From a virus, in the IMG/VR virus record IMGVR_UViG_3300022214_000011, positions 1-40,928 of that record: a stretch of 40,928 bases of DNA. One strand, given 5' to 3'. A program made the position numbers and the translations under genes. Numbering within the stretch: the stretch's first letter is position 1; every line of letters begins with the position of its first letter. The notes beneath the pieces are model-generated. The model did not search any database and was not told the DNA's origin. It saw only the letters and a list, made by a program, of their open reading frames with translations. Of the stretch, positions 16,215-19,215 are shown piece by piece.

Positions 16215-16844
16215 ATGTCTGAAATCATCTATCTGTCCAATGTTCGCCTGTCTTTCCCTCACCTGGTCGAACCTCACGCTGCAACCGAGGGGGGTATTAA
16301 AAAATACAGCGCCGACTTCATCATGCCTCCCGATCACCCAGGCTTCAAGCAGTTCATGCAGCAATACGCATCTCTGGTACAGACGAAGTGGGCAGAACAC
16401 GCTCAAAGCGTCATGCAGGTTATCCAGAACGATCGTAAGCTGCGCTGTTATGGTTCCGGTACCGAGAAGATCGATAAAAAGACCTTCCAACCTTACAGCA
16501 GTTACGCTGGCATGGTGTACCTCACCGCCAGCAAGGACGTGTTGCCTCAAATGATTACGGACAACGGCTCACCTGTCGATCCGGTCAATACGATGGCGTG
16601 TCAATCAATTGCTCGCAAGCTGTACGGTGGCTGCTTCGTCAACGCTGCTTTGAGTCCGTGGCTACAGGACAATAGGCACGGTCGTGGTGTCCGCTGTGAC
16701 CTGGTTGCCGTCCAGTTCTGCAAGGATGGTGAGCCGTTCGGTGAGGGTACGATTGATGTGACAGGTGTGTTCGGTGCTGTCCAGCAGCAACCCGCCGCCG
16801 CAGCACCCGCTGCATCAATGCCAATGCCGCCGTTCATGTCGTAA
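16215..16844 (+). CDS. DUF2815-family single-stranded DNA-binding protein
   Basis: 209 residues, ribosome site AAGGAG. Start MSEIIYLSNVRLSFPHLVEP is the family signature, followed by YSADFIMPPDHPGF and GMVYLTASKD; the DUF2815 family is an OB-fold ssDNA-binding group related in role to T7 gp2.5. The tail is Ala/Pro-rich and ends MPMPPFMS rather than in an acidic stretch. Paired with the DUF2800 nuclease upstream, as in many phages. The structured non-coding stretch follows. Confidence 0.85.
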   Translation: MSEIIYLSNVRLSFPHLVEPHAATEGGIKKYSADFIMPPDHPGFKQFMQQYASLVQTKWAEHAQSVMQVIQNDRKLRCYGSGTEKIDKKTFQPYSSYAGMVYLTASKDVLPQMITDNGSPVDPVNTMACQSIARKLYGGCFVNAALSPWLQDNRHGRGVRCDLVAVQFCKDGEPFGEGTIDVTGVFGAVQQQPAAAAPAASMPMPPFMS

Positions 16845-16870
16845 ACAAGGGTTACCCATAAAAGGGTGCG

Positions 16871-17067
16871 GTGATGGTGTTACGTCAGATTCGCTCGCCC
16901 CGTGTGACAACCTACCTTTAATCTGAATTCGGGTTGTCACCACATCACACCTGTCGCCGGAGCGGGAACGTAACAGTCCGGCGTTTATCGAAACGTCATC
17001 GCTGCTGTAGCAAGCGGAGTGAACCTGTAGGGGACGATGATTGAACCAGCGGTGACGTTCCGATAAA
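16871..17067 (+). ncRNA. Candidate structured RNA between ssb and polymerase genes
   Basis: No ORF covers this stretch, but it is full of pairing. Perfect stem 16904-16912 with 16932-16940 (9 bp). Perfect stem 16955-16961 with 16977-16983 (CGCCGGA/TCCGGCG, 15-base loop). The loop of the latter contains ACGTAACA (16968-16975), complementary to TGTTACGT (16878-16885), giving a possible pseudoknot. Then a 21-bp arm, 16984-17004 with 17047-17067 (19 Watson-Crick, one G-U, one A-C). The last arm ends 9 bases before the ribosome site of the next gene. It could be a leader regulating the polymerase operon, a stand-alone RNA or a DNA-level element. No known class recognised. Confidence 0.55.
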
Positions 17068-17086
17068 TAACGAAAAGGAGATGGCG

Positions 17087-17275
17087 ATGTACTACATTCA
17101 AGAAAAAGACGGTCGTGGTTTTTACAAATGGTGTATCAAGGGTTCCCCTGTGTTCTCACCCCGTCGGGTGAAGGGTATGTTCAAAACTGACGTTAAGGCA
17201 TCGGCTGAGATGGTGATGAAGCATCTATCGATACTCCTACCATATGCCAGTTTTGAGATCGTCGTGAAATTGTGA
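17087..17275 (+). CDS. Small hypothetical protein before the polymerase (62 aa)
   Basis: Two in-phase ATGs, 17081 and 17087. The GGAG ribosome site abuts the first, so the second (MYYIQEKDGRGFYKW) is the better start. Basic and aromatic, with SPRRVKGMFKTDVKASAEMV in the middle. Its stop overlaps the polymerase GTG start (GTGA), so it may set the polymerase's translation level. No family recognised. Confidence 0.65.
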   Translation: MYYIQEKDGRGFYKWCIKGSPVFSPRRVKGMFKTDVKASAEMVMKHLSILLPYASFEIVVKL

Positions 17276-19215
17276 ACATAATCTACGACATTGAAACCTA
17301 CCCCAACTGCTTCACCCTGGCCGCCGAGCACGCTGACTACCCTATCCGGTGGTCGTTCGAGATCAGTGATTACCGTGATGATTCGCGCGATCTGATTGAC
17401 TGGGTCAGGTGGATTAAGTCACAACACGGTCGGATGGTCGGGTTCAAGAACATCGAATTCGATTACCCTGTGCTGCACACACTCATGCTGATGGGTAAGG
17501 GTGACGCTGCCACGCTGTACAGTAAGGCGATGGCTATCATCGGGACACAGGACAAAGACGTCGGCCTTGGTCACCCTGTGATACACACAGTCATGCTGAT
17601 GGATAAGGTTGACGCTACCACGCTGCACAGTAAGGCGATGGTTATCGTCGGGTCACAGGACGACAATAGGTGGCAGCACAGGGTCTATCCATCAGACCGC
17701 CGGTGTGACCAACTCGATCTGTCCCTCATCCACCACTTCGACAACAAGGCACGCTTCACCGGGTTGAAGGAGGTGGAGTTCATCATGAGGATGGACAGAG
17801 TGGTTGGTCTCCCTTTCCCTGTCGGCAGCACACTCAATCGTGAGCAGATACAAATACTTAGGAAGTACAACGCTTATGATGTGACCGCGACCAAAATGTT
17901 CTATCACGAGAGTGCCGACATGATCCGGTTCAGAGAAGAACTGACCCGTAAGTACAATCGTGATTTCATGAATCATAATGACACGAAGATCGGTAAGGAT
18001 TATTTCATTATGCGGTTGGAGGAAGCCGGGGTGCAGTGTTACTACTACGGCACTAATGGTCGCACACCCAGGCAAACCCCTCGCCCGACCATCGCGCTCA
18101 AGGACGCGATCCTACCGTGGATACAGTTCGAGCAGCCGGAGTTCACACGCATCCTGAACTGGCTGAAAAGTCAGACCATTACCGAGACGAAGGGTGTGTT
18201 CAATGGTGTGGTAGCACATGTCAATGGATTCGACTTCGTGTTCGGACTCGGTGGTATTCATGGTAGCGTGACCAATGAAAACGTTGACGCGAGTGATGAG
18301 TTCGCCATCATTGACCTGGACGTGACCAGCTACTATCCATCACTGGCCATCGTCAACAGGTTCAAACCAGAACATCTGACCGACACCTTCTGCTCCATCT
18401 ATGAAACACTCAAGGAACAGCGCGTCAGCTTCAAGAAAGGTAGCGCGGAGAACGCCATGCTTAAGTTGGCATTGAATGGTGTGTACGGTGACAGCAACAA
18501 CAAGTTCAGTGTGTTCTATGACCCGCTGTTCACCATGTCCATCACGCTCAATGGTCAATTGCTGTTGTGTCTACTTGCGGAATGGTTGATGCGGGTGGAG
18601 GGTCTGCGAATATTACAGGTCAACACTGACGGTCTCACTGTGAGGGTAAAGCGTGAACACCTACCTCACGTTGAGGCAGTTCGAGAGAATTGGGAGAATC
18701 TCACTAACCTTCAACTGGAGGAGACGCGCTACACCCGCATGGTGATCGCGGATGTCAACAGTTACATCGCCGTCAAGGAAGATGGTGGTGTGAAGCGCAA
18801 GGGTCGTTACGAATATGACCTTGAATGGCATCAGAACGCCTCATCACTGGTCATCCCGAAGGTCGCGGAAAAGGTGTTACTGGATGGCGCACCCATCCGC
18901 GCAACAATTGAAGGGTGGGATGACCAGATGGATTTCATGTGTCGCGTCAAAGTGCCGCGCAGCAGCAAGCTGCTCTACGTCGAGGATGATGTTGACACCG
19001 TGATTCAGAACACCACCCGATACTATGTGGCGAAGGGTGGCGGGTCACTGTGCAAACTGATGCCTCCTCTCAAAGGTAAGACTGAGTGGCGCAGGATCGG
19101 TGTTGTGTCCGGCTGGTCAGTATGCGTGTGCAACGACATCAAGGATGCCGTGCTGCCGATTGACTACGATTATTATGTGGATGAGGTGGAGAAGTTATGC
19201 TTGAGCGTGATATAG
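17272..19215 (+). CDS. DNA polymerase, family B-like, with proofreading domain
   Basis: 647 residues from a GTG start. Exonuclease motifs: IIYDIETYP (Asp6, Glu8), GFKNIEFDYP (near 57-66), YNAYDVTAT (199-207). Polymerase motif A DLDVTSYYPSL (about 348-358), motif B as LKLALNGVYG, motif C as NTDG (451-454), a variant of the usual DTD. Residues 65-100 and 101-136 are a tandem duplication inside the exonuclease domain, not present in the relatives I remember. Last base overlaps: the nuclease gene starts 19 bases before the stop. Replicates the phage genome. Confidence 0.88.
   Translation: MNIIYDIETYPNCFTLAAEHADYPIRWSFEISDYRDDSRDLIDWVRWIKSQHGRMVGFKNIEFDYPVLHTLMLMGKGDAATLYSKAMAIIGTQDKDVGLGHPVIHTVMLMDKVDATTLHSKAMVIVGSQDDNRWQHRVYPSDRRCDQLDLSLIHHFDNKARFTGLKEVEFIMRMDRVVGLPFPVGSTLNREQIQILRKYNAYDVTATKMFYHESADMIRFREELTRKYNRDFMNHNDTKIGKDYFIMRLEEAGVQCYYYGTNGRTPRQTPRPTIALKDAILPWIQFEQPEFTRILNWLKSQTITETKGVFNGVVAHVNGFDFVFGLGGIHGSVTNENVDASDEFAIIDLDVTSYYPSLAIVNRFKPEHLTDTFCSIYETLKEQRVSFKKGSAENAMLKLALNGVYGDSNNKFSVFYDPLFTMSITLNGQLLLCLLAEWLMRVEGLRILQVNTDGLTVRVKREHLPHVEAVRENWENLTNLQLEETRYTRMVIADVNSYIAVKEDGGVKRKGRYEYDLEWHQNASSLVIPKVAEKVLLDGAPIRATIEGWDDQMDFMCRVKVPRSSKLLYVEDDVDTVIQNTTRYYVAKGGGSLCKLMPPLKGKTEWRRIGVVSGWSVCVCNDIKDAVLPIDYDYYVDEVEKLCLSVI
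17464..17679 (+). repeat. 108-bp in-frame tandem duplication in the polymerase gene
   Basis: 17464-17571 and 17572-17679 align with a 108-bp period; about 20 of the first 30 encoded residues are identical (PVxHTxMLM, SKAM, QD). The last few codons of the unit differ between copies. Confidence 0.85.

Follow-up and report, generated by a model that had tools for sequence, protein, structure and literature searches.

The window analysed here is a stretch of 40,928 nucleotides, positions 1 to 40,928 of the virus record IMGVR_UViG_3300022214_000011, in which a structured region lies between the gene for a single-stranded DNA-binding protein (ssb) and the gene for DNA polymerase. The features of this region are listed by position; L039 denotes a second virus record, IMGVR_UViG_3300007363_000751.

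16215–16844, + strand: ssb gene, Enc34-type ssDNA-binding protein / Gp2.5-like (DUF2815-like) (Pfam PF10991, 9.6e-22; PHROG 112, 8.8e-32)
about 16868–16983, + strand: module 1, double-pseudoknot RNA common to the window and L039
16868–16881, + strand: alternative-pairing strand, partner 16992–17005 (14 bp including 4 G-U)
16878–16885, + strand: 5′ strand of pseudoknot 1, TGTTACGT, partner 16968–16975
16885–16891, + strand: 5′ strand of pseudoknot 2, TCAGATT, with one base common to pseudoknot 1
16904–16940, + strand: hairpin 1, stem 16904–16913/16931–16940, nine Watson-Crick pairs and one G-U
16920–16926, + strand: 3′ strand of pseudoknot 2 within the loop of hairpin 1, AATCTGA, pairing with 16885–16891
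16955–16983, + strand: hairpin 2, stem 16955–16961/16977–16983, seven pairs, loop GCGGGAACGTAACAG
16968–16975, + strand: 3′ strand of pseudoknot 1 within the loop of hairpin 2, eight perfect pairs with 16878–16885
16984–17067, + strand: module 2, long imperfect hairpin with arms 16984–17004 and 17047–17067, no relative found
17075–17080, + strand: Shine-Dalgarno AAGGAG of the small ORF, read directly from the sequence, outside the long arm
17087–17275, + strand: small ORF, function unassigned, alternative ATG at 17081, stop overlapping the polymerase GTG start
17272–19215, + strand: DNA polymerase gene, downstream of the RNA element (PHROG 1252, 7.8e-178)

The gap of 236 nt between ssb and the small ORF is long relative to the rest of the operon. 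The ssb–polymerase interval has no match among phage records, and for the small ORF neither the IMG/VR scan nor phage records nor Pfam gave a homologue. Since its stop overlaps the polymerase start codon, this ORF is likely to be translationally coupled to the polymerase. No promoter better than chance was seen near the interval, no intrinsic terminator (a GC-rich stem followed by a T-tract) occurs within 16600–17500, and the interval holds no homing gene. Inside the polymerase gene, positions 17445–17660 form a 108-bp tandem duplication of 36 codons with copies 82% identical, where the L039 polymerase, compared by eye, has a single copy.

Two RNA modules in the window

In module 1 a single upstream strand (16878–16891) pairs with the loops of both hairpins. 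The original prediction, made from the letters of the window, had described two perfect stems of 9 and 7 bp and an 8-base complementarity between the second loop and upstream bases. Both stems and the complementarity are found where it had placed them, hairpin 1 having gained a G-U pair, and pseudoknot 2 is additional to the pairings that it listed. When the genome was scanned for two consecutive hairpins whose loops each pair upstream, the layout turned up once in 4,080 genome windows and never in 3,000 dinucleotide shuffles, so that the two-hairpin, two-pseudoknot architecture is not a product of chance. Folding energy by itself is only moderately unusual, with z = −2.1 for the + strand of the interval (6 of 200 shuffles equally good) and z = −0.85 for the − strand. 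The RNA resembles the riboswitches, ribozymes and group I introns of Rfam 15 in being compact and pseudoknotted, and the window matches no family there at its gathering threshold, in line with the earlier statement that no known riboswitch, ribozyme or intron core is recognisable. We regard it as well supported that the interval encodes a structured RNA, the function of which we infer.

Module 2 corresponds to the 21-bp arm of the original prediction, whose coordinates were right and whose pairing is imperfect, with 19 Watson-Crick pairs, one G-U and one A-C mismatch. It ends, as had been described, just ahead of a ribosome site, 7 nt before the Shine-Dalgarno sequence. It matches nothing in any other ssb–polymerase interval, and since L039 carries the conserved RNA without it, the long arm is a second module outside that RNA; the stretch, at first taken as a single object, is better read as two modules. 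The suggestion of a new phage leader RNA therefore holds for a structured and unclassified RNA, given the absence of an Rfam match, the compensatory changes in L039 and the covarying RNAs in the same interval of relatives, and suits the stretch as one object less well. A pairing absent from the first list, 16868–16881 with 16992–17005, would compete with the long arm and is a possible switch. Masking of the ribosome site by the long arm was considered and rejected, since AAGGAG is not part of the arm and stays unpaired when module 2 is folded; in the minimum free energy fold of the whole interval the last bases of AAGGAG take part in weak terminal pairing.

A second member and the slot in related phages

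Among the relatives fetched, only L039 has the RNA of the window, and there too it lies between ssb and polymerase. A local alignment of the two intervals was equalled in 1 of 1,000 shuffles. As MAFFT misaligned hairpin 1, the two sequences were aligned by hand on their stems, and in this alignment seven pairs have changed on both sides and remain paired: three in pseudoknot 1 (of 7 aligned pairs), two in hairpin 1 and two in hairpin 2. In hairpin 2, L039 has lost one outer pair and keeps the C/GGGG-AAC of the loop. Pseudoknot 2 is formed there by a different 6-bp pairing of loop and upstream strand at the same topological place, the order of helices is identical, and the polymerase gene follows the RNA directly. 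The window and L039 thus carry the same RNA, an assignment made on homology and compensatory changes and not on the layout count, since the double-pseudoknot layout of L039 alone is expected in 4% of shuffles at a looser threshold. Three degenerate DNA patterns were also scanned over IMG/VR; among the matches listed only L039 belonged to the class, the other hits examined being unrelated, and the class of the window is represented by these two sequences. The original prediction had made its case depend on covariation and on a structured counterpart in relatives, and L039 supplies both, though most relatives carry a different class at this place.

Relatives were gathered through polymerase, ssb and helicase searches, and redundant IMG/VR contigs were merged only where the intervals, or interval and protein, were identical. 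This gave about 140 distinct ssb–polymerase intervals from related, mostly uncultured and largely aquatic phages, the nearest named one being phage DSL-LC05 of Dishui Lake, for which a family 'Luchaoviridae' has been proposed (PMC10611076). Among the 142 intervals with an identified ssb, a run of G begins exactly 7 nt past the ssb stop in 90 and 5–7 nt past it in 110, and in 54 short intervals a C-run with CACC ends 15–16 nt before the polymerase. The closing stem is usually GGGG/CCCC, the interiors fall into at least 12 unrelated classes, and within the fetched loci the GGGG...CCCCACC frame occurs essentially only at this junction. Tandem pairs of cassettes are present in L108, L151, L174, L212 and L254. 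Some relatives have simple hairpins of the GGGGCTTCGGCCCC type in the slot, in keeping with a stable fold as the shared requirement. The window and L039, which have neither the GGGG/CCCC stem 7 nt past the ssb stop nor the CACC, form a class without this frame, and in the window, too, the space from ssb to the following operon gene is taken by a structured RNA. What is shared is therefore the slot and not one RNA family. At gathering thresholds, Rfam gave no match in 34 related loci save a tRNA-Thr in L003. A stem of GC bases followed by T5 was seen in just 1 of the 142 related intervals and none in the window, and so these are not ordinary terminators. Folding energies of the intervals show a modest excess over shuffles (mean z −1.4), and because such scores separate the intervals poorly from coding controls, the argument rests on covariation.

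The cassettes and their flanks show several further peculiarities. tRNA-like arms lie inside cassettes of the GAAAGC...GCGAGTA class (L121:2673-2770, L254:1444-1541, L071:3387-3488), and the conserved GAA/AGTA internal loop of this class resembles the sarcin-ricin motif, as judged by eye. In the intervals of L061 and L045/L048 there is a tRNA-like sequence that has a T-arm, for which ARAGORN makes no tRNA call. A methyltransferase or HNH/AP2 endonuclease gene lies downstream of the cassette in some relatives. At L042:2220-2645, L084:4807-5256 and roughly a dozen further loci, an insert between the cassette and the polymerase gene encodes a protein of about 141–149 aa from one related family; this family has an HNH/AP2-type homing look by eye and no Pfam match, and L240 has a clear HNH_3 protein at that place. 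The polymerase match in L082, L084–L086 and L095 is about 400 bases longer than expected, suggesting an insert in the gene. In L396:380-766, a polymerase relative on a contig binned to Marmoricola, the interval keeps the frame with different closing pairs, GAGCCCC/GGGGCTC followed by ACC.

Covariation and exchange of the cassettes

Covariation was tested in two sister classes, separate from the class of the window. In the first, a pseudoknotted class of 16 sequences, 99.5% of cells are paired and 11 pairs have changed on both sides, where shuffles give 4.6 (none of 500 as high), and the pairing collapses when the columns are slid by one. The named structure was counted directly, as RNAalifold has no notation for the pseudoknot and leaves out the covarying hairpin. 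Most of the covariation lies in the outer stem and the hairpin; the pseudoknot helix has one double-changed pair (14/52) and is otherwise invariant, as are many unpaired bases. The simpler class, with 19 sequences, is 99.7% paired and has 4 double-changed pairs, a count reached in 4 of 500 shuffles. Two of the at least 12 classes in the slot thus covary strongly, one of them including a pseudoknot. On the + strand, the helices of both classes contain 41 G-U wobbles and 2 A-C mismatches, an asymmetry that indicates selection on the coding-strand RNA and not on DNA.

The classes were mapped on a tree of 153 polymerases, where they require at least 67 changes, the minimum possible being 13; the figure of 67 is approximate, as labels came from self-written motif patterns (regular expressions) and the tree, built by a quick method, has weak support at many forks. 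The pseudoknotted class takes 12 changes for 14 members (13.6 with shuffled labels), and the starred branches alone force 10 of them. Judged from these branches, cassette classes move between lineages, i.e., they are exchangeable. At the level of sequence comparison, then, structure, sense strand, fixed position and class swapping can be taken as established.

Possible roles of the junction RNA

With moderate confidence we propose that the element acts in cis as an intercistronic RNA and keeps the expression of ssb separate from that of polymerase. The interval would be transcribed along with the replication operon and would fold as sense-strand RNA, and the junction would accommodate structured RNA cassettes that are interchangeable, one or at times two of them. 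Such a cassette may shield the 3′ end of an abundant ssb message from exonucleases, and may also, or instead, pause or process the transcript, by which the output of ssb and polymerase would be held at different levels. What we infer is that the interval is transcribed, that it folds in vivo and that it affects expression. That a structured RNA is required, that its identity is free and that its spacing is tight fits a cis boundary between a gene expected to be needed in bulk and one needed at a low level. Terminator-like hairpins in distant cultured relatives lend this reading support: stems followed by T5 stand upstream of the polymerase gene in Proteus phage 2207-N35 and Edwardsiella phage PEi21, Salmonella phage Sasha has a hairpin at that place with a terminator annotation, and the gene before the polymerase in these phages is taken, by its position, as the ssb counterpart. 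In the group studied here the T-tract is missing, so termination is unlikely and protection of the mRNA, pausing or processing is more likely. The slot RNAs share with known ratio-setting intercistronic hairpins (terminators or attenuators, REP-type 3′ stabilisers) a fixed place between ssb, presumably a high-need gene, and a lower-need gene; they differ in lacking the T-tract, in being pseudoknotted, in their many exchangeable classes and in their class-specific conserved bases. Double pseudoknots are not needed for a mere barrier and count against the cis boundary, and the invariant unpaired bases of the pseudoknotted class likewise suggest something beyond a stable fold.

The junction is possibly, and we say so tentatively, a hypervariable RNA locus at which recombination exchanges functional RNAs of unrelated kinds, several of which are pseudoknotted and none of which is in Rfam; it would be the RNA counterpart of variable anti-defence loci, and each class would have its own host target or its own mode of action. 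It seems rather unlikely that the cassettes are trans-acting small RNAs (host-defence decoys, tRNA mimics or regulators) processed from the operon transcript, their turnover reflecting an arms race. The scattered distribution of at least 12 unrelated classes, the conserved unpaired bases inside one class, the tRNA-like arms in L061, L045, L071, L121 and L254 and the real tRNA in L003 would all suit such RNAs, but the fixed spacing to both neighbouring genes suggests action in cis, plain hairpins fill the slot in some relatives, and the window has no better-than-chance promoter.

In phage T4 the ssb protein gp32 and the polymerase gp43 each repress translation of their own message through a leader RNA, which is a pseudoknot in gene 32 and a hairpin in gene 43 (PMC3014915, PMC535899), and by analogy the polymerase or ssb protein might bind the present RNA and repress polymerase translation. 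The position in a polymerase leader and the pseudoknot recall this control (PMC3014915, PMC535899), yet unrelated RNA classes precede polymerases about 60–70% identical and change repeatedly on the tree, which makes one recognising protein implausible; moreover, the Shine-Dalgarno sequence of the window is outside the long arm and the small ORF, not the polymerase, comes next. We hold such an operator to be quite unlikely. The gene 32 leader of T4, T2 and RB69 is likewise a pseudoknot in a phage replication-gene mRNA beside ssb, but it is about 28 nt long, lies upstream of ssb and has a UUAAA-rich tail (PMC3014915, PMC535899), whereas the RNA of the window lies downstream of ssb, has two hairpins and two pseudoknots and lacks that tail; identity with the gene 32 operator was rejected on position. 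The gene 43 operator of T4 and RB69 is likewise a structured RNA in a phage DNA polymerase leader, in T4 a single short polymerase-bound hairpin near the start codon (PMC3014915); the fold described here exceeds it in size, stops short of a small ORF and gives way to unrelated folds in relatives. A UAAC-type loop near the start was not found, the polymerase beginning at 17272, about 200 nt past the last hairpin; the loop of hairpin 2 does contain UAAC, which belongs to pseudoknot 1 and has not been preserved in L039. A self-cleaving ribozyme or a processing site (including RNase P or RNase III) that cuts the ssb–polymerase transcript is improbable: the double-pseudoknot fold is compact, and in most relatives the GGGGC...GCCCC-ACC frame looks like the acceptor end of a tRNA with ACC after it, but no Rfam ribozyme matches, the ACC is missing from the modules of the window and no conserved cleavage-core sequence was recognised. 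The original prediction had also allowed a replication element. A DNA element, whether a replication origin or primosome site acting as folded ssDNA or a by-product of mobile or homing genes, would suit the position between replication genes and the endonuclease or methyltransferase genes beside some cassettes; it is nevertheless highly improbable, as the 41:2 ratio in the related classes points to selection on + strand RNA, no GC-skew switch occurs near 17 kb and no homing gene lies in the interval of the window.

To our knowledge, RNAs that control phage replication operons are known mainly from T4-like phages, and the present findings suggest an unrecognised RNA control point in such an operon. 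Across about 140 intervals, one fixed position is occupied by a dozen or more RNA structures of unrelated kinds, which raises the testable question of why a single junction needs a structured RNA yet tolerates so many kinds, and several new RNA classes become available for structure work and anti-defence screens.
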